Assembly (NCBI RefSeq): GCF_013267195.1
Contig: NZ_CP053941.1
Span: 2,108,001-2,172,000, forward strand
DNA from: Halorubrum salinarum
Lineage (GTDB): Archaea > Halobacteriota > Halobacteria > Halobacteriales > Haloferacaceae
Length of the DNA: 64,000 nucleotides
Direction of reading: 5' to 3'
The notes under the pieces: generated by a model
The model's database searches: none
Told to the model about the DNA's origin: nothing
Seen by the model: the letters and a program-made list of their open reading frames with translations, nothing else
In this document: positions 37,405 to 48,714 of the stretch, piece after piece
Numbering within the stretch: position 1 is the first letter of the stretch
Layout of the letters: every line of letters begins with the position of its first letter
Made by a program: the position numbers and the translations under genes

Positions 37405-38148
37405 CTACCGCCCCAGCAGCGTCCCCACGTGGTCGGCGCGCTCCTCGCCGACGAGGTCGCGCAGCGCCGCGGGGTCGCGCTCGCCGTCGGCGTTGACGAG
37501 GTAGACGGCGCCGTCGCGGTCGCCGTACGCGCCGTGGAGGTCGTAGACGAAGCCGTACACGGTCGCGTCCGCCGCCTCCTCGCGCCCGCGGGCGAACGCG
37601 ACCTGCTCGTGGACGTTGTGCTCGACGAGGCGGTCGCGGAGCGAGGGGCCGGCGCCGTCGCCCCGGTTCTCGCCCGCCGCATCCCCGCCTTTCCCGTCGG
37701 CCGCCCCGCCGCCGACCCGCGGATCGCTCAGCCCGTCCTCGACGATCGGTAGCAGCGCCTCGACGTCGGCGCGGACGCCCGGTTCGCTCGGGAACTCGCC
37801 CGTGCGGGCCGCCGTGAGTGCGGCGTCGACGGCGCCGCACCCGGTGTGGCCGACCACGGCGAGCACCTCGGTGTGGGTGTGTCCGAGCGGATACGCCACG
37901 CTCCCGTCGAGGACCCGCTCGCCGTCGACGACGGCGCTGACGCTGTTGCCGATGGCGCCGGACGTGAAGAGGTACCCCGGTTCGTCGACGGCGAACATCC
38001 CCTCCTGCGAGACGCGCGAGTCGGAACAGCAGACGGAGACCACGCCCGGCCGCTGGTCGTCGCGGTGCCGGTCGAAGGAGCCGGGCGGCAGCGCAGCGAC
38101 GTGGTCGTCGTTGCGGTCGAGGAGGTCGGCGAGGATCCGGCTGTCCAT
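37405..38148 (-). CDS. Beta-class carbonic anhydrase
   Basis: A 247-aa zinc enzyme interconverting CO2 and bicarbonate. Ligands Cys41 and Asp43 lie in VCCSDSRVSQ, and His101 and Cys104 in GHTGCGAVDAA, with FTSGAIGNSV matching the conserved AG(N) region. A low-complexity acidic insert (~150-170, GGGAADGKGGDAAGENRGDG) enlarges a surface loop. TATA GTTTTTTATTCC at ~38169-38180 lies ~26 bp before the ATG. No signal peptide is visible, so it is cytosolic. The dabBA genes 5-9 kb away concern the same substrate. Confidence 0.93.
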   Translation of the reverse strand: MDSRILADLLDRNDDHVAALPPGSFDRHRDDQRPGVVSVCCSDSRVSQEGMFAVDEPGYLFTSGAIGNSVSAVVDGERVLDGSVAYPLGHTHTEVLAVVGHTGCGAVDAALTAARTGEFPSEPGVRADVEALLPIVEDGLSDPRVGGGAADGKGGDAAGENRGDGAGPSLRDRLVEHNVHEQVAFARGREEAADATVYGFVYDLHGAYGDRDGAVYLVNADGERDPAALRDLVGEERADHVGTLLGR

Positions 38149-40916: not shown

Positions 40917-41071
40917 CCGGCGCCCGTCCCCTTCCGATTTTCCGCCGCGTCGACGGTCCGGTCGCAGTCTCCGTCACCGACCCGGCACAGTCCGCTTCGC
41001 CGGCCCGAAACCTGTCACCGAGCCTGACGCTTCCCCCCTGTTATATCCGTCCGAGCGGCGAGGTCGGACGC

Positions 41072-41416
41072 ATGGTTCTCGGAGCAATCGTCTCGTTCGT
41101 CGTCGCGCTGCTGGTCGGCGGCCTGGGCATCTACGTCAGCGGTCGGATCGTCGCGGGCGTCGACGACTACTCGCACGCCGTGGTCACGGCGCTGCTCGGC
41201 GCCCTCGCCTGGGCGCTCGGATCGCTGATCCCGCTGATCGGGCCGGTCGTCGCGCTGGTCGCGTGGGTGTGGGTGATCAAGTGGCGGTACCCCGGCGGCT
41301 GGAGGGACGCGGCGGTCATGGGACTCGTCGCGTGGGCCGCCGCCCTAGTCGTCATCGCCGTGCTGAACGGCGTCCTCGGGCTCGGGATCAGCGCGTTCGG
41401 GGTGCCCGGCGTCTGA
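41072..41416 (+). CDS. Small integral membrane protein
   Basis: A 114-aa protein with about four hydrophobic helices (AIVSFVVALLVGGLGIYVSG, AVVTALLGALAWALGSLIPL, GPVVALVAWVWVIKW, VMGLVAWAAALVVIAVLNGV) and short charged loops (KWRYPGGWRD). TATA GTTATATCC (41039-41047) lies ~27 bp before the ATG, indicating a leaderless gene. No transporter or enzyme motif is recognisable. The region between phoU and this gene (40917-41071) otherwise shows only the promoter. Confidence 0.8.
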   Translation: MVLGAIVSFVVALLVGGLGIYVSGRIVAGVDDYSHAVVTALLGALAWALGSLIPLIGPVVALVAWVWVIKWRYPGGWRDAAVMGLVAWAAALVVIAVLNGVLGLGISAFGVPGV

Positions 41417-41485
41417 CCGAGGCGTCGCGGCCGGTTCCCCTCGACCGTCCGCCCGACGAACGGTCTCCTCACGGGACCGCGCCGA

Positions 41486-42892
41486 TCAGGTCGCGATTTC
41501 GAACCGAGCGCCGGCGCCCGGGTCTTCGGTGACGCGGACCTCCCAGCCGTGCGCGTCGACGATCCGCTCGACGATCGCCAGCCCGAACCCGCTGCCGTCC
41601 TCCCGGGTCGTGTGTCCCTTCTCGAAGATCAGGTCGCGCTCCTCGGGCGGGATCCCCGGGCCGTCGTCCTCGATGAACACGCCGCCGCCGTCCGGCAGGA
41701 CGCCGGCCGTGAGCGTGACTCCGCTGCCGCCGTGTTCGACGGCGTTCCGGATGATGTTCTCGAACGCCTGCGTGACCCGCGCGGGGTCGCACGCCAGCGT
41801 GACGCTGTCGGTCACCCGCAGCGAACTCTCCGGCGCCCGGACGTTCTCGTAGCTCTTCTCGACGATCTCCCGAAACGGAACGTCGCGCCGCTCGCCGAGC
41901 GTGCGGCCCTCCTTCGCGAGCGTCAGCAGCTCGTCGATGAGCGTGTCCATGCGGCCGACGGCGTCGAGGGCCGTGTCGATCCCGTCGTCCTCGATGTCCG
42001 ACGCCGCGAGGCTGAGGTTCCCGGCCGCCACGTTCAGCGGGTTCCGGAGGTCGTGTGACACGGTCGCCGTGAACTCCTCCAACTGGTCGACAGTCTCGGT
42101 CAGCTCCCGGTCGTACAGCTTCCGGTCGGTGATGTCGCGCGTCAGCCCGACGAGCGAGGCGACCGCGCCGTCCTCGTCGGTGATCGGCTTACACCGCGAC
42201 TCGACCCAGAGCCGCACCGAGTCGGACTTCTCGACGCGGTACTCGACCACCTGCGGCGTCCCCGCCGAGGCCGACTCCATCGCCTGCCGAACGCGGGCGA
42301 CGTCGTCGCCGTGGATCTTGTCTAAGAACGTCGTCGGGTCGTCCCGGATCTCCGCCGCCGGCTGCCCGAATATCGCCTCGTGGCCGTCGTTGATGAACCG
42401 GAGCTCGTCCCACGTCGGCGAGAACACCCACCACACCTGGTCGGTCACGGCGGCGATCTCGCGGAGCCGCCTGTTCGTCCGGTCGCGCTCGCGCTGGGCC
42501 CGCCGGTGTTCGACGTAGGTGACGATCTTCCGCGCCAGCAGCGGCGCCTGGTTCTCGACGGCGTCCTGGATCACGTAGTCGGTGACGCCGGCCTCGATGC
42601 TCTCGCTCGCGACCGTCTCGGTCCCGGTGTTCGTGAAAAGCAGGAAGGGGAGGTCCGGCCGGTCCTCGCGGACCGACCGCAGGAACTCGACGCCGGTCAC
42701 CTCCGGCATGTGGTGGTCGCAGAGCACGCAGTCGATCGCCCGTTCCGCCAGCAGCCGCTCCCCCTCGGCCGCTGAGTCCGCGGTCTCGATCCGGAGCCGG
42801 TCGCTCTCCGCCCGCAGCTGCCGCGAGACCAGCTCCCGGAGCTGATCGTCGTCGTTGACGTACAGCAGGTCAACGGGCCGTTCGCTCCTCAT
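41486..42892 (-). CDS. REC-PAS histidine kinase
   Basis: A 468-aa cytosolic signalling protein. An N-terminal receiver domain (~7-125) has acidic VNDDDQ, phospho-acceptor Asp59 in CVLCDHHMPEVTG and a late Thr/Lys region. A PAS domain with PAC (~145-260; VFSPTWDELRFINDGHEAIFG, SLVGLTRDITDRK) follows. HisKA has His280 in TATVSHDLRNPLNVAAG, and HATPase_c has the N box (ENIIRNAVEHGG) and GSGFGLAIVERIV. With no membrane segment it senses an internal or relayed signal. No response regulator gene adjoins it. It lies downstream of dabA, ~110 bp away, and may have its own promoter. Confidence 0.93.
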   Translation of the reverse strand: MRSERPVDLLYVNDDDQLRELVSRQLRAESDRLRIETADSAAEGERLLAERAIDCVLCDHHMPEVTGVEFLRSVREDRPDLPFLLFTNTGTETVASESIEAGVTDYVIQDAVENQAPLLARKIVTYVEHRRAQRERDRTNRRLREIAAVTDQVWWVFSPTWDELRFINDGHEAIFGQPAAEIRDDPTTFLDKIHGDDVARVRQAMESASAGTPQVVEYRVEKSDSVRLWVESRCKPITDEDGAVASLVGLTRDITDRKLYDRELTETVDQLEEFTATVSHDLRNPLNVAAGNLSLAASDIEDDGIDTALDAVGRMDTLIDELLTLAKEGRTLGERRDVPFREIVEKSYENVRAPESSLRVTDSVTLACDPARVTQAFENIIRNAVEHGGSGVTLTAGVLPDGGGVFIEDDGPGIPPEERDLIFEKGHTTREDGSGFGLAIVERIVDAHGWEVRVTEDPGAGARFEIAT

Positions 42893-43002: not shown

Positions 43003-45468
43003 TCAGTCGTCCGCGACGGCGGGGGCCGCGCGCCGCTCGCGGGCGGGGTCGGCCGACTCCGGCGTCGGCGTCCACTCCAGCCCGCCGTCGTAGTGGAAGG
43101 CGCGGTGGTCGCGCGTCGGGTCGACGACCGTCAGCGAGAGCCAGCCGTTGTCCAAGAGCCCGGCCACCGACTCGTTGTCGGCCAGGACCTCGGTCACGCG
43201 GTCGACCGGCGCGTGGACGACCGTCGAGAGCCGGAGGGGCAGGTGGTACGGCTCGTCGGCGGCGGCCATGACCGACTGGAGCGGCAGGCCGGTCATCAGG
43301 TCGCCGCCGTTGCCCTGGTAGACGCCGACGTTCCCGACGGGGTTGTGCGTCACCTTCGACCCGCTGCCGTACGCCGCGTTGTCGACCGTCGAGAAGTAGT
43401 ACTGCGCGTTGATCCACTGGGTGACGACCATCGGTCCGGTGAGGATCGCTTCGAGAGCGTCGCCGTCCGCGTCGGTCGCCCAGTCGTACGAGTGGAGGAA
43501 GGCGCGGCCGTCGAGGTCGAGCCCGTCCGTCAGATCGCGGGGCCCGACGACGAAGCCGGCGTTGCCGGCCAGCCCCCACTCGGGGCGCGTCTCGGCCCAG
43601 TCGCCGGCGCGGCGCTCGGTCTCCCGGACGCCCGTCCCCTCGGCGGCCCCGCCGGTGCGCTCGTCGGCGGCGCGCTCGCGGGCGGCGTCGAGGTCCGCGC
43701 GCAGCCGTTCGAGGTCGTCGGCGTGCGAGTCCGGCACGTCGCGGTCGTACAGCGTCACCTCGTCGGTCGTCGTGTTGTGTTCGGCGGCGAGGAAGACGGT
43801 GTCGTCGGGCACGTCGATCCCGCGCTCGCGTAATCCGTCCCTGACCTCGGGGTCGTTACAGATCGCGGCGAGCACGCGGGCGCTCGGGCCGCCCGGGTTG
43901 CCGGCGCAGGCGCCGCAGTCGAGGCTGGAGTCGTAGGGGTTGTTCGCCGTCTCGGCCGCGTGGCCCGTGAAGACGACCAGGCGGCCGAACGACTCCCACC
44001 CCATCAGCTCGAACGCGGTCGCGGCGTACTCGACCCGCTCGTCGCGAGACAGCCCCGTCGGGAGCCCCTCGCCGGCGTCGTCGTGTCCGTGGACGCCGGG
44101 CTCGCAGAACTCGTGGTCGCCCGGCACCGCGTCGTCGGCGCCGCCGAGCAGGTCGCGCACCCGGCCGGGGACGAGCGTGCGCGCGGCGAGCGCGAGCCCG
44201 TACCCGCTTCCGGCGCCCTCGACGAAGCTGAACGCGGTGGCGGGGTTCGACCGCACCGTCTCGATCACCTCGCCGGCGGCCTCACGGAGGCCGCCCCAGC
44301 GGTCGCGGCTCCTGCGCGCGGCGCCGTCCGTCGGGACCTCCTCGACGCGGTGCTGCGGGTCGAGGATCGGCGGACAGGCGTCGACGGACACGTCGGCGTC
44401 GTAGCCGCTGTACTCCATCGGGACGCCGAAGAAGCCGGCGTACCCGTGCGTCTCGTAGTCGCCGGTCGCCTCGACGTGCCGGCGGATCACCTCCGAGCGC
44501 GTGTCGATACAGAAGACCAGCTGGGCGTCCGGGCGACCCGACGCGCCGCCGTCGGCGCGCGCCCCGCGCTCCTCCCCGCGGGCCTCGCTCTCGGCGGCGA
44601 CGCGCTCGACGAGCCCGTCGCGGTACGTCGCCTCCCACGCGCTCAGGAACGCGTCGGCGATCTCGTCGCTCGGCTCGACCGCCGGCCCGTCGGTCTCGGG
44701 CGGCGAGAGGTCGACCCCGAGGGCGTCCGCCAGCGCGAGCCGCGCCGCGAGGTACCCCGTCAGCGTGATCGGGTACGCGGACTGCCACGCGCCGCCGTCG
44801 TCGGCGCGCCGCTTGAGCAGGCCGGTCCACCCGGGGAGCGCGGCGAACTGCGCCTCGAAGACGGCCGCCCACCGCTCGCGGGGATACGGCGCCAGCGCGG
44901 CCTCGATCGCCTCGGTCGGCGACGCCGGCAGGTCGGCGACGAGCCCGTCGTCGGGGATCTCGTCGTCGTGGCGGGCCACAGAGCGGAACGCGTCGTAGAA
45001 CCCCGCCTCGCGGTTCGGCATCGCCCACTCGGCCTGCCCCTCGTCGAGGAACGCCGAGAGCCACTTCGTCAGCACGCGGTCGACGCGGTCGGCGCCCGCG
45101 TCCGAGCCGTCCGCCTCGCCGGCGCCGCTGGCTCCGTCCGCGTCCTCGGCGGCCGCCAGCCGCTCCAGCATGGCCTCGGGGTCCGCCTCGTACCCCCGGT
45201 CGGTCAGCTCCGCGTCGAGGCGCTCCGGGTCGATCCGCCCCTCGTCGAGGGCCGCCCGGAACGTCTCCGCGCGCGGGTAGCCGCGACCGCCGAGGAGGTC
45301 GGCCGCCTGGCTCACGGCCTCGTCGAACGGCAGGTCCTCGAAGCCGGCGAGGGGGTTCGCGGTCACGAACGAGTGGACCGGCCAGACCGAGCCCACCGCG
45401 GTCGCGGCCGCGTCGATCTCCGCTTCGATGTCGTCAGCGTCGTCGTCGGTACCGGTCTCAGTTGTCAT
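43003..45468 (-). CDS. dabA: DabA-type inorganic carbon pump subunit (DUF2309)
   Basis: An 821-aa peripheral protein with the zinc site of DabA: Cys320 and Asp322 in QLVFCIDTRSEVIRR, His503 in FTGHAAETANNPYD and Cys518 in SSLDCGACAG. This arrangement resembles a beta-carbonic anhydrase and the His-Cys spacing equals that of the characterised bacterial protein. With DabB it hydrates CO2 vectorially to bicarbonate, driven by an ion gradient. Acidic low-complexity inserts (~108-128, 295-312, 600-625) fit halophily. Its ATG overlaps the end of dabB by 11 bp. Such genes are best known from autotrophs, so its presence here is notable. Confidence 0.92.
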   Translation of the reverse strand: MTTETGTDDDADDIEAEIDAAATAVGSVWPVHSFVTANPLAGFEDLPFDEAVSQAADLLGGRGYPRAETFRAALDEGRIDPERLDAELTDRGYEADPEAMLERLAAAEDADGASGAGEADGSDAGADRVDRVLTKWLSAFLDEGQAEWAMPNREAGFYDAFRSVARHDDEIPDDGLVADLPASPTEAIEAALAPYPRERWAAVFEAQFAALPGWTGLLKRRADDGGAWQSAYPITLTGYLAARLALADALGVDLSPPETDGPAVEPSDEIADAFLSAWEATYRDGLVERVAAESEARGEERGARADGGASGRPDAQLVFCIDTRSEVIRRHVEATGDYETHGYAGFFGVPMEYSGYDADVSVDACPPILDPQHRVEEVPTDGAARRSRDRWGGLREAAGEVIETVRSNPATAFSFVEGAGSGYGLALAARTLVPGRVRDLLGGADDAVPGDHEFCEPGVHGHDDAGEGLPTGLSRDERVEYAATAFELMGWESFGRLVVFTGHAAETANNPYDSSLDCGACAGNPGGPSARVLAAICNDPEVRDGLRERGIDVPDDTVFLAAEHNTTTDEVTLYDRDVPDSHADDLERLRADLDAARERAADERTGGAAEGTGVRETERRAGDWAETRPEWGLAGNAGFVVGPRDLTDGLDLDGRAFLHSYDWATDADGDALEAILTGPMVVTQWINAQYYFSTVDNAAYGSGSKVTHNPVGNVGVYQGNGGDLMTGLPLQSVMAAADEPYHLPLRLSTVVHAPVDRVTEVLADNESVAGLLDNGWLSLTVVDPTRDHRAFHYDGGLEWTPTPESADPARERRAAPAVADD

Positions 45469-46945
45469 TGTACTCCTCCGTGGCGGTCAGGACGGTGTTC
45501 GGGGCCGGTTGGCCCGCGTTCAGCAGCGCGACGTAGAGGCGCTCGCTCCGCTCGTGGACGCCGGTCTCGACCGCGACGTACGCCGCGAGGAAGGCGACGG
45601 CGACGACGGCGTGGAGCGCGGTCAGCTCGGTCGGCGCGGAGACGAGCGGGAGCCCGGAGAGGACCCCCGAGACGGCCCGGTACGCGAGCGCGTACACGCC
45701 GATGGCCGGGAGCGCGACGAGCGGGACCGCCGCGTAGCGGGCCGCCGTCGAGAGGGCGGTCTGCCGGACGGCGCTCCGGGCCGCGTGGAGCGTCGTGAGC
45801 GTCACGAACCCGGCGAGCAGCAGCCCGGTGTCGACGCTCGTCCCCTTCCCCGTCAGGAGCGCGAACGTCGCGCCGCCCGCGAGCCCCGTCAGCAGGACGA
45901 CGACCGCGCCGGCGACGCCCGTTCCGCCGGCGTCGTGGTCGGCCTCCCCCGGAGCCGCGCGCTCGACCTCGTCGCCCGCGCTCAGGAAGTGGTACGCCTT
46001 GTAGAAGCCGTGGAGGATGAGGTGCGTCACGGCGGCGCCGAAGAAGCCGAGCCCGGCCTGGACGATCATGAAGCCCATCTGCCCGACCGTCGAGCAGCCC
46101 AGTTCGCCCTTCACGTCCGCCCGGACGGTCTTGAGCAGCTTCCCGGCCAGCGCGCTCGCGGCGCCGACGACCACGACGGCGAGCATGAGCCCGGTCTCGA
46201 CGGTCACGACGGGCGCGAACCGGGTCAACAGGATCCCGCCCGCGTTGACGAACCCGGCGTGCATCAGCGCCGAGGCGGGGGTGGGGGCGGTCATCGAGGA
46301 GAGCAGCCAGCCGTGGAACGGGACCAGCGCCGACTGGATCATCGCCGCGAGGACGAGCGCGGCGCCGGCGACGAGCCACGCGGGCCCGCCGAGGGCGTCG
46401 GCGCTCGCGGCGACGCCGGATATCGTCGTCTCGCCCGTCGTCCGCCACAGCGCCGTCAGCGCGACGCCGAGCAGCGCGCTGCTGGCGAGGAAGTGACGCC
46501 GGGCGACGCCCGCGGCGGCGCGGGCCTGCGGCCAGCCGTCGACGGTGCCGACGAGCCGGGCCATCAGGAGCCCCATCGCCAGCCAGCAGGTCCAGAACAG
46601 CGCGACGTGGTCGGCCGCGACGAGCGCCATCACGGCGAGCGTGAACCCGAAGACGCCGAGGAAGAAGTCGGTCTCGTGGGCGTCCCCGGCCATGTAGCGG
46701 CGCGAGTAGCTGTGGACGATCCCGCTGAAGAACGTGACCACCACCCACATCAGGACGGTCAGCCCGTCGACGGCGACCGCGCCGGGAATCTCCCACACCC
46801 CGCCGAGTCGGAGTCGGGCGACGAGGACGGCGACGCTCGCGGCGAACAGCGTCCACGCGAGCCGGGTTAATGCGACGGGAAGTGACGAGGTTTCGGCCGT
46901 CTCCCGGAGCGCTCCGACCGTCGGTTTCGAGGTGCGTCCTGACAT
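45458..46945 (-). CDS. dabB: DabB, NuoL/antiporter-like membrane subunit
   Basis: A 495-aa protein with ~13-14 membrane helices of the complex I NuoL/Mrp family: VVTFFSGIVHSYSRRYMAGD, FWTCWLAMGLLMARLVG, and ALMHAGFVNAGGILLTRFAPV with the HAG motif. Lys in VRADVKGELGCSTVGQMGFM belongs to the ion channel. It couples cation or proton flow to DabA. The start is probably ATG 46943-46945 (MSGRTSKPT). An in-frame GTG 15 bp further up (46958-46960) is possible, because TATA TTTTAATAG (47036-47044) predicts a ~70-nt leader. It overlaps dabA by 11 bp. Confidence 0.9.
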   Translation of the reverse strand: MSGRTSKPTVGALRETAETSSLPVALTRLAWTLFAASVAVLVARLRLGGVWEIPGAVAVDGLTVLMWVVVTFFSGIVHSYSRRYMAGDAHETDFFLGVFGFTLAVMALVAADHVALFWTCWLAMGLLMARLVGTVDGWPQARAAAGVARRHFLASSALLGVALTALWRTTGETTISGVAASADALGGPAWLVAGAALVLAAMIQSALVPFHGWLLSSMTAPTPASALMHAGFVNAGGILLTRFAPVVTVETGLMLAVVVVGAASALAGKLLKTVRADVKGELGCSTVGQMGFMIVQAGLGFFGAAVTHLILHGFYKAYHFLSAGDEVERAAPGEADHDAGGTGVAGAVVVLLTGLAGGATFALLTGKGTSVDTGLLLAGFVTLTTLHAARSAVRQTALSTAARYAAVPLVALPAIGVYALAYRAVSGVLSGLPLVSAPTELTALHAVVAVAFLAAYVAVETGVHERSERLYVALLNAGQPAPNTVLTATEEYNDN

Positions 46946-47034: not shown

Positions 47035-47100
47035 TCTATTAAAATTGTCTGTATTCACAATTCGTTCGATTATCTCGCATTATAGAACATTATGGTTACC
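47035..47100. promoter_or_regulatory. AT-rich control region upstream of dabBA
   Basis: In a ~70% GC neighbourhood this 65-bp tract is AT-rich. It contains the dabB TATA box (AATTTTAATAGACG on the minus strand, ~47033-47046) and, upstream of it, two direct CATTAT repeats at 47079-47084 and 47089-47094, one helical turn apart. TTATGGTT at 47090-47097 has an inverted match AACCATAA at 47177-47184, near the divergent amidohydrolase start. The layout suggests a regulator-binding region; the regulator is unknown. Confidence 0.5.
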
Positions 47101-47208: not shown

Positions 47209-48225
47209 ATGGAAGAACTCTCGGGGACCGTCCTCGCCGGCGAGTCGTTCGAGCCGGTGCGGGGACGGGTCGTCGTCGAGGACGGGCGGATAGCGGCGGT
47301 CGAGGAGACGGCCACGGAGTCGACGGACATCGTGCTGCCGGCGTTCGTCAACGCGCACACCCACCTCGGGGACTCCGTCGCGAAGGAGGCGGCCGTCGGC
47401 CTCTCGCTCGACGAGGCCGTGGCGCCGCCGGACAGCCTGAAACACCGCCGGCTGGCGGCCGCCGACCGCGACGAACTGGTGTCGGCGACGCGTCGCACCC
47501 TCCGGTACATGCGCCGGACGGGCACGGTCTCCGCGCTGGACTTCCGCGAGTCGGGTCCTCCCGGCGCGCGCGCGCTCCGCGAGGCGGCCGAAGACACGGG
47601 CGTTGACCCGTTCATCTTCGGGAGCGGCGACCCGGCGGTGCTCGACGTGGCCGACGGTTACGGCGCCTCCGGCGCCAACGACGACGACTTCGCCGCCGAG
47701 CGCGCCGCCTGCGAGGAGCGCGGCGTCCCCTTCGCGATCCACGCGGGCGAGCCCGACGCGACGGACATCCACCCGGCGCTCGACCTGGACCCGGACCTGC
47801 TCGTCCACATGGTCCACGCCGAGGAAGAGCACCTCGAACGGGTCGCGGACCAGTCCGTTCCGATCGCGGTCTGTCCGCGCGCGAACGCGGTCCTCGGCGT
47901 CGGGACGGCGCCGATGCGCGACCTGGTGGACCACGCGACCGTCGCGCTCGGCACGGACAACGTCATGCTGAACCAGCCGTCGATGTTCCGCGAGATGGCG
48001 ACCGCCGCGAAGCGGTTCGACGTGACCGACCGGGAGGTGCTGCGGATGGCCACCGCCGCCGGCGCCGAGATCGCCGGCCTCGACTGCGGCGTCGTCGAGC
48101 CCGGGCGGCGCGCGGCGCTGCTCGTCCTCGACGGCGACTCGGACAACACCTCCGGGACGGCCGACCCCGTCAGCGCCGTCGTCCGGCGCGCGACCGGGCT
48201 GGACGTGAAGCGGGTCGTCGGCTGA
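47209..48225 (+). CDS. Amidohydrolase (chlorohydrolase/deaminase-like)
   Basis: A 338-aa metal-dependent hydrolase of the amidohydrolase superfamily. It has the metal motif AFVNAHTHLGD (HxH), His in PFAIHAGEPD, and His in LLVHMVHAEEEHLE. The metal-bound catalytic Asp is in ALGTDNVMLN. Spacing and the VCPRAN motif match cytosine/guanine-deaminase-like subgroups, so it may deaminate a nucleobase or pterin analogue. CCATAACG at ~47179-47186 is the probable TATA, with the ATG ~26 bp downstream. It is divergent from dabB and converges on the Lrp gene. Confidence 0.87.
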   Translation: MEELSGTVLAGESFEPVRGRVVVEDGRIAAVEETATESTDIVLPAFVNAHTHLGDSVAKEAAVGLSLDEAVAPPDSLKHRRLAAADRDELVSATRRTLRYMRRTGTVSALDFRESGPPGARALREAAEDTGVDPFIFGSGDPAVLDVADGYGASGANDDDFAAERAACEERGVPFAIHAGEPDATDIHPALDLDPDLLVHMVHAEEEHLERVADQSVPIAVCPRANAVLGVGTAPMRDLVDHATVALGTDNVMLNQPSMFREMATAAKRFDVTDREVLRMATAAGAEIAGLDCGVVEPGRRAALLVLDGDSDNTSGTADPVSAVVRRATGLDVKRVVG

Positions 48226-48234
48226 CCGCCCCGG

Positions 48235-48714
48235 TCAGTCACCCTCGTGCCGCTCCGCGTCGAACCGCCCGAAGGGGGTGGTCTCGTGGGTCCGCACGAG
48301 CACCTCGTCGGCGACCGTGACCCCCATGTCGAGGAGCGCCTGCGCCACGGGCGTGATGTCGCTGTCCGACTCGCCGACGACGGTCACGAGCAGGTTCTGC
48401 TCGCCCGTCACGAGCTCCTGGACCGACACGACGCCGTCGATCTCTAAGATGTCGGGGATGAGCTCGCCCCGCTCCGGGATCGACGCGGTGCAGTAGAGCA
48501 GCATCCGGAGCGGGTACCCCGACCGCTGGTAGTCGACGCTGGCGCTGTACCCCTTGATCACGCCCTCCGACTCGAGCCGCTGGATGCGCTTGCGGACGGT
48601 GCTGTCCGAGGTGCCGGTCCGCTCCGCGATGTCCCCGGACGACGTGTTCCGGGCGTCGGCCTGGAGCGCGTAGAGGATCGCCCTGTCGACGTCGTCGATC
48701 GCGCCGTTGTCCAT
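48235..48714 (-). CDS. Lrp/AsnC-family transcription regulator
   Basis: A 159-aa regulator. The N-terminal winged HTH (AILYALQADARNTSSGDIAE, then TGTSDSTVRKRIQRLESEGV) is followed by a RAM/ligand-binding domain (YPLRMLLYCTASIPERGELI ... ELVTGEQNLLVTVVGESD). It probably forms octamers and responds to an amino acid or metabolite. TATA GTATAAAAGC (48740-48749) lies ~27 bp upstream. Targets are unknown; the dabBA/amidohydrolase intergenic region 1 kb away is one candidate. Confidence 0.92.
   Translation of the reverse strand: MDNGAIDDVDRAILYALQADARNTSSGDIAERTGTSDSTVRKRIQRLESEGVIKGYSASVDYQRSGYPLRMLLYCTASIPERGELIPDILEIDGVVSVQELVTGEQNLLVTVVGESDSDITPVAQALLDMGVTVADEVLVRTHETTPFGRFDAERHEGD

Follow-up and report, generated by a model that had tools for sequence, protein, structure and literature searches.

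The window analysed here, a stretch of 64,000 nucleotides from Halorubrum salinarum (contig NZ_CP053941.1, positions 2,108,001 to 2,172,000; G000:C1:2108001-2172000), carries the genes dabB and dabA, predicted to encode a two-subunit DAB complex for dissolved inorganic carbon (DIC), and 5' of them, on the same strand, a gene for an Lrp/AsnC-family protein. The host genome is 3.34 Mb long and 99.97% complete. The features that concern the complex and its proposed regulation are the following (positions in the window):

43003..45468, minus strand: dabA, 821 aa; PF10070; zinc ligands C320/H503/C518, dyad D322/R324, finger Glu E417
45458..46945, minus strand: dabB, 495 aa, ATG at 46945; NuoL-like membrane subunit; PF00361 and PF00662
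47020..47072, minus strand: 53-bp promoter element of dabB, conserved; contains a CGAAC-N5-GTGAA box, TTTTAATA at 47044-47037 as TATA-like string, and GTTC downstream of it
47079..47094, minus strand: upstream part of the conserved promoter, CATAATGTTCTATAAT, with nine recurrent 8-mers
48235..48714, minus strand: Lrp/AsnC-family regulator, proposed dabBA regulator on the basis of its PF13412 and PF13404 helix-turn-helix (HTH) domains, synteny and co-occurrence

The initial annotation of this DNA described a complete DabBA pump, and this was borne out: dabB and dabA are intact, they overlap by 11 bp (45458-45468) as had been stated, and DabA fills the PF10070 profile (868.7 bits for a cut-off of 25, positions 1-747 of 747). 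The locus was compared with 14-20 kb stretches around DabA from 100 genomes picked by genus; together with the window these represent 101 of the 188 DabA-bearing genomes of the class and 43 of the 50 DabA-bearing genera. Neighbours were assigned by single-protein searches, since a first neighbourhood clustering lumped carbonic anhydrase (CA), Lrp and ArsR genes. The order dabB-dabA was found in all 101 haloarchaeal loci and the 11-bp overlap in 84 of them (counted by eye), some of the other 17 being over-extended open frames. The observations presented below make it likely that the locus encodes a DAB-type DIC complex of a heterotroph, forming an Lrp-regulated module.

Residues named in the cryo-electron microscopy paper on DAB2 of Halothiobacillus neapolitanus (PMC13144422) were mapped onto the window proteins via phmmer alignments. 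The best solved relative of DabA was the DabA2 chain 9rd0_A (361.8 bits, phmmer). Thirteen of the 14 DabA2 residues checked are kept in the window protein: C320, D322, R324, S325, A344, E417, H503, C518, H564, R628 and L633 are invariant in the 101 loci, D569 and W631 are kept in 100 and 99 loci, respectively. The exception is the tunnel residue L629, which is replaced by A608 in the window and varies among haloarchaeal loci. Cys320, Asp322, His503 and Cys518, given as zinc-site residues in the initial annotation, are all present; they correspond to C351, D353, H524 and C539 of DabA2 and are identical in all 101 haloarchaeal DabAs. In DabA2, however, zinc is held by two Cys and a His, and the Asp pairs with R355 (R324 in the window) as a dyad (PMC13144422), so that Asp322 is a dyad partner and not a zinc ligand. 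The Cys2His zinc site and the Asp-Arg dyad of DAB complexes are thus present, as is the finger-helix Glu (E444 of DabA2, E417 here, in 101 of 101 loci). An AlphaFold2 model of DabA had a mean pLDDT of 87.0; a Foldseek search with it gave no match at E<=0.001, and 9rd0 was absent among the 50 matches listed.

The best solved relative of DabB was the DabB2 chain 9rd0_B (130.2 bits), with a NuoL chain close behind (123.3). The AlphaFold2 model of DabB (mean pLDDT 88.2) matched E. coli and mycobacterial NuoL chains with TM-scores of 0.60-0.69 among the Foldseek chains listed; 9rd0 was absent among the matches listed. All seven DabB2 channel residues are kept in the window (S225, H229, K279, S285, H308, H312 and K316), the first two in 100 and the other five in all of the 101 loci. 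Conversely, the ion pair of DabB2 is absent: its Lys K235 is replaced by Gln204 in the window (Gln in 99 of 101 loci, with one Arg and one gap) and its partner D185 by Ser156 (Ser in 79 loci, Thr, Gly, Ala or a gap in the rest). R182 of DabB2 has no clear counterpart in the window protein, two alignments disagreeing there.

The two sites of the pair vary together. Among 81 DabB rows from many phyla, from which L150, L190 and L211 had been left out beforehand as fragments, Lys or Arg at the pair site is accompanied by an Asp or Glu partner in all 16 rows that have it, and none of the 65 rows with Gln or Pro has an acid at the partner site. The states follow the branches of the tree and have changed more than once, since Arg-type sphingomonads stand beside a Gln-type Legionella branch. 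Alanine changes at the ion-pair sites of DAB2 let complementation persist with a yield reduced by 30-60% (PMC13144422). By its aligned residues the window complex is classed as DAB and not as DAB2-type, because the Lys235/Asp185 pair is absent (Q204/S156), and haloarchaeal, Bacteroidota and Legionella-type DabBs, if functional, would operate without a Lys-Asp pair.

The regulator candidate is an AsnC-type winged HTH protein, which scored above the cut-off with both PF13412 (55.1 bits) and PF13404 (49.6 bits). The 11 Pfam families listed include no RAM model, while phmmer matches to full-length Lrp-like chains extended to residue 136 of 159; the scores of the protein with the nine NCBIfam families listed all fell far short of the respective cut-offs. 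All 101 loci, spanning 43 genera, have an Lrp homologue (212-335 bits) on the 5' side of dabB and encoded on its strand, at a distance of 9 to 2071 bp and with varying intervening genes; at one locus (L054) a weaker Lrp paralogue is nearer, on the other side. Among the 101 homologues, 58 of 159 residues are identical in at least 99%, many of them within the HTH.

Best E-values for Lrp in 292 genomes of the class fell in two bands, one below 1e-60, the other from 1e-31 to 1e-45 together with genomes without a match. DabA and a strong-band Lrp occurred together in 183 genomes and were both lacking in 103, against five genomes with DabA only and one with Lrp only (Fisher p 1e-71, uncorrected for descent). 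Among the five, G205 and G272 hold DabA remnants only; the lrp gene is severed by a contig end in G285, and in G195 the contig begins within dabB. In G021 the contig begins 1.1 kb before dabB, a CA homologue and the promoter element occupy that space, and no Lrp was found genome-wide at 1e-15.

In a second set, of named loci, an Lrp homologue was present in 29 of the 30 haloarchaeal loci, the exception being L150, in which dabB is broken. It was found in one of the 56 non-haloarchaeal loci, several of which are represented by stretches without a 5' side; the one is an archaeal metagenome-assembled genome (MAG), where the gene is severed by a contig end. Three of five bacterial plasmid loci carry a 5' LysR-type gene that points away from dabB, in one case with a gene between; none is seen in the Staphylococcus stretch, and the Sphingobium stretch begins too close to dabB to judge. 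From its position and co-occurrence, the Lrp/AsnC gene is proposed to encode the regulator of dabBA.

The dabB upstream regions share an element with the consensus CGAACgaTTTG...aTTTAATA..ca.tctGTTC, often preceded by CATAATGTTCTATAAT; the nine 8-mers of 47079-47094 occur in 32-45 of the 101 regions, compared with 0.2-0.6 in shuffles (shuffled in two-base blocks, not exact dinucleotide shuffles). A 53-column matrix was built on the 81 loci (36 genera) that have a TATA-like string, and loci were scored leaving out their own genus. The element was found in all 101 dabB upstream regions, with lowest scores of 15.8, 20.5, 20.7 and 30.2, all others at least 42.6, and a median of 61.1. The highest scores were 1.9 in 505 shuffles, -3.6 at the 101 lrp promoters, 14.0 at 44 CA promoters and 19.7 at 27 amidohydrolase promoters, which share the dabB region. 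The window element scored 53.7, the next-best window site (4.0) being on the opposite strand at the same place. Outside dabB promoters, 12 matches exceeded 15 and three exceeded 20 (best eight per strand per locus), most of them, judging by position, the same promoter reversed; one of 26.7 lies upstream of a CA-like gene in L055. Among the named loci, many of whose genomes are shared with the 101-locus set, the element was found in 28 of 30 haloarchaeal loci, the misses being L132 (an over-extended frame, so that the scan ended before the site) and L150 (dabB broken). The best score at 52 other named loci was 23.1, in an AT-rich Staphylococcus. We infer that the Lrp protein binds this element. 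Neither the regulator nor the promoter figured in the initial annotation.

Two simpler operator candidates were discarded. The palindrome AATTGT-N8-ACAATT near 47040 was present in one of the 101 upstream regions. Exact GAAC-N5-GTTC was too loose as a stand-alone motif and the 53-bp matrix was used instead; it occurs in 29 of 101 dabB, 0 of 101 lrp, 2 of 44 CA and 3 of 27 amidohydrolase promoters.

Two further genes of the window bear on the locus:

47209..48225, plus strand: amidohydrolase, PF01979; between lrp and dabB, divergent from dabB
37405..38148, minus strand: beta-carbonic anhydrase, 4.86 kb 3' of dabA; PF00484 (62.3 bits); C41, D43, R45, H101 and C104 present

The nearest NCBIfam family of the amidohydrolase is NF005552, at 237 bits under its cut-off of 294. 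A strong homologue (at least 515 bits) occupies the same position in 27 of the 101 loci (14 genera).

The beta-CA gene at 37.4 kb, pointed out in the initial annotation, is real and its site is intact. Across the class, 44 of the 101 loci, from 26 of the 43 genera, have a beta-CA homologue no more than about 9 kb away from dabBA; four arrangements occur, and in 29 of the 44 the distance is 0.5 kb or less. The rate expected by chance is roughly 0.7% per locus. The linkage is weak in this particular genome, because the 4.86 kb gap holds other genes and a linked beta-CA is present in 4 of the 14 loci from Halorubrum. This dab-CA neighbourhood is a parallel and not a first, because a CA gene adjoins mpsAB in some Firmicutes (PMC8552792). 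Genome-wide, DabA and PF00484 matches were both present in 161 of the 292 genomes, with 27 having DabA only, 102 beta-CA only and 2 neither (Fisher p 3.6e-4, uncorrected for descent; the CA search covered the beta class only). Thus, 27 of the 29 genomes without beta-CA have DabA, and these span 12 genera. These counts may miss a CA-like group, since the CA homologue 5' of dabB in G021 (L228:203-907) scored 222.5 bits with the CA profile and matched no Pfam family.

Eight of the 44 linked CA homologues, all encoded between lrp and dabB, have no intact Asp-x-Arg dyad (L041, L055, L058, L060, L103, L105, L125 and L130); CA-like proteins of this kind are also encoded in L142 and L165, and Halorubrum sp. 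CSM-61 and Halegenticoccus soli provide examples. Among the eight, the Asp is replaced in seven, in six of them together with the Arg, and the frame of L055 is too short to tell; five of the seven readable proteins have CSM instead of CSD. His101 and Cys104 are kept in all 44 linked homologues and Cys41 in 43. On these residues, the dyad-less CA-like proteins may be a non-catalytic partner or sensor. A 16-bp box at CA promoters gave p values of 0.002-0.019 in L058, L060, L103, L130 and L041, uncorrected for 44 genes; it lies on the opposite strand in L105 (p 0.006), and in L092 (0.0009) it resembles the dabB promoter of that locus reversed. The box is suggestive at most.

The initial annotation treated DabBA as unexpected in a haloarchaeon. 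This surprise is not supported: of the 292 genomes from the class, 188 have DabA, representing 50 of 77 genera (G205 and G272, counted among the 188, hold remnants only), and such genes are already in print. In 2017 the YbcC/NuoL-like pair was described as confined, among archaea, to Haloarchaea and attributed to lateral transfer (PMC5700660); in 2021 HVO_2410/HVO_2411 of Haloferax volcanii were listed as a predicted CO2 transporter (PMC8305020), and DabBA was again placed in Haloarchaea in 2024 (PMC10880623). In the openly licensed papers searched, no experiment on an archaeal DabBA was found. Decayed loci with DabA pieces only lie at G205:C5 ~41067-42791, with an Lrp remnant adjoining, and at G272:C1 ~2432203-2432595. 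In two Haloarcula strains the regulator-dabB-dabA set is carried on a plasmid of about 400 kb (L132, pNG700; L226, pHH400). On pHH400 of Haloarcula hispanica the three genes are HAH_RS17955 (regulator, 336.7 bits with the Lrp profile), HAH_RS17960 (dabB) and HAH_RS17965 (dabA).

A phylogeny of DabA, suggested in the initial annotation, was run as a quick maximum-likelihood tree of 71 rows. These comprised the window, six named haloarchaea, a single haloarchaeal locus from each third genus code, and non-haloarchaeal matches without fragments and over-long sequences; the matches were the best 80 of 592. The 21 haloarchaeal rows fall on one side of a branch with an SH-aLRT support of 98. A wider set (SH-aLRT 99) adds 11 Bacteroidota, one Rhodothermota (Salinivenus) and one more archaeal MAG, and six Firmicutes form a branch of their own (SH-aLRT 100), outside which haloarchaeal DabA lies. 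Caution is needed, as 56 of the 71 rows, including the window, deviate in letter composition and long branches meet elsewhere in the tree. The topology fits a single transfer between such bacteria and haloarchaea; it leaves both the direction and the exact sister undecided.

The proposed mechanism is as follows. DabB would admit an ion into the cell, most likely H+, and this influx would drive DabA, presumably a beta-CA-related zinc enzyme, to convert CO2 one-way to HCO3- by hydration. The bicarbonate would feed phosphoenolpyruvate (PEP) carboxylase and biotin carboxylases under scarce CO2, beside or replacing plain beta-CA. The Lrp/AsnC protein most likely binds the ~53-bp element and would set dabB expression by carbon status. 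Profile searches of the host genome gave a single match for PEP carboxylase (886.6 bits), two for carboxyltransferase and none for RuBisCO; together with the intact catalytic site, this gene content favours a bicarbonate supply to anaplerosis and to the carboxylation of acyl-CoA over autotrophy. Bicarbonate supply to heterotrophic carboxylations, already suggested in the initial annotation, is thus the best reading of the predicted role of the pump.

Several observations weigh against this explanation. The genomes are related, so the p values above exaggerate independence. G129 is a real exception: it has an intact 154-aa Lrp homologue, 69% identical, without DabA and also without a beta-CA match. 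Its gene (L227, G129:C1:1798000-1814000) stands beside a Usp gene and genes for an MFS transporter, NarK-like but below cut-off, and for the catalytic subunit of an anaerobic CO dehydrogenase (611 bits for a cut-off of 478); a weak promoter-like match (31.8) lies upstream of the transporter gene. In the window, the divergent amidohydrolase gene separates lrp from dabB. The element contains a TATA-like box, so that its conservation is partly that of a core promoter; since a TATA box such as TTTAATA is to be expected there, what speaks for a regulator is confined to the GAAC/GTTC boxes and the stretch upstream. The H+ coupling of DAB2 is not simply transferable, because the K235/D185 pair is Q204/S156 here. 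Finally, PF00484 is matched twice in the genome from which the window comes, so that the pump is not the sole likely source of bicarbonate.

Alternatively, as proposed for Staphylococcus MpsAB, the complex could import bicarbonate with Na+ instead of carrying out an H+-driven CO2 hydration, the Na+ gradient of the brine being the force and beta-CA balancing CO2 and HCO3- inside the cell. Staphylococcus MpsA is likewise without the Lys-Asp pair, and the 44 loci with a beta-CA homologue near dabBA agree with such a scheme. We nevertheless consider it unlikely: the zinc-site and dyad residues of DabA2 are identical in all 101 loci, the pair site is Pro/Trp in the six Firmicutes and Gln/Ser in haloarchaea, and the tree (a quick one, with composition warnings) puts haloarchaeal DabA with Bacteroidota and one Rhodothermota, away from Firmicutes.

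The Lrp homologue might instead have nothing to do with dab, controlling itself, the amidohydrolase or a wider regulon, its position reflecting inherited gene order. Some haloarchaeal Lrp proteins act globally (PMC8229911), and both the amidohydrolase gene between lrp and dabB and the intact G129 homologue, placed by MFS transporter and CO dehydrogenase genes without DabA, would be accounted for. This is quite improbable, however, because the order is kept across 43 genera although intervening and flanking genes vary, the amidohydrolase is strong at 27 of 101 loci only, DabA is present in 183 of the 184 genomes that have the homologue, and the element is found at dabB promoters and not at lrp promoters. 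An energy-converting complex unconnected with inorganic carbon, as suggested in 2017 for YbcC/NuoL-like operons (PMC5700660), would suit a complex I-type antiporter subunit such as DabB, for which no functional test in archaea was found in the literature searched, but is very improbable, since DAB2 (PMC13144422) and MpsAB (PMC6689103) can replace the carbonic anhydrase of E. coli, the same catalytic residues are present here, and absence of beta-CA coincides with presence of DabA.

The preferred explanation, an Lrp-regulated DAB-type complex, can be placed among known systems. Both subunits, the zinc ligands, the Asp-Arg dyad, the finger Glu and the seven DabB channel residues are shared with DAB2, as is a Leu where the transition-state Gln would stand; Gln204/Ser156 in place of Lys235/Asp185 and a host without a RuBisCO match set the window apart. 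Haloarchaeal loci have an Lrp/AsnC gene 5' of dabB, whereas three proteobacterial plasmid loci have LysR-type genes there. MpsAB of Staphylococcus and other Firmicutes is likewise a two-gene DAB homologue of heterotrophs without the Lys-Asp pair, with a beta-CA next door in some species (PMC8552792), but it belongs to a separate DabA branch, has Pro/Trp at the pair site, and no Lrp match was found in the S. pettenkoferi stretch. In Haloferax volcanii, the dabAB genes (HVO_2410/HVO_2411) are, like the window pair, a predicted CO2 transporter in a haloarchaeon; the available part of PMC8305020 does not mention a regulator or promoter. The window Lrp resembles the haloarchaeal Lrp and LrpA1 in family, size and winged HTH, but falls outside both NCBIfam haloarchaeal models (scores of 42.8 of 190 and 50.2 of 250). 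The DabBA pump is therefore of a known family, already known in haloarchaea, and the variant lies in its regulation (Lrp, promoter) and in the Gln-type DabB. No prior report of the class-wide Lrp module, the promoter element or the Gln-type DabB was found in the openly licensed literature searched.

A wider reading, tentative and on balance somewhat doubtful, is that of a class-wide regulon. One Lrp/AsnC protein would act as an archaeal regulator of inorganic-carbon supply, sensing carbon status through HCO3-/CO2 or through an amino acid indicative of it and controlling DabBA via the element, in some genera jointly with the dyad-less dab-linked CA homologue, a possible partner or sensor. In G129, where DabA and a beta-CA match are both missing, this regulator would have been redirected to another transporter or to CO metabolism.

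In conclusion, the pump is carried by most of the haloarchaeal genomes examined (188 of 292), and the pump or beta-CA is present in nearly all genomes checked, only 2 of 292 being without both. Gln-type DabBs show that, where the ion pair is concerned, the coupling model of DAB2 does not apply to a large part of the DAB family, among it haloarchaea, Bacteroidota and the Legionella-containing branch. The system can be tested directly and cheaply in Haloferax or Haloarcula, given its single regulator gene, its delimited promoter element and its either-or relation to carbonic anhydrase.

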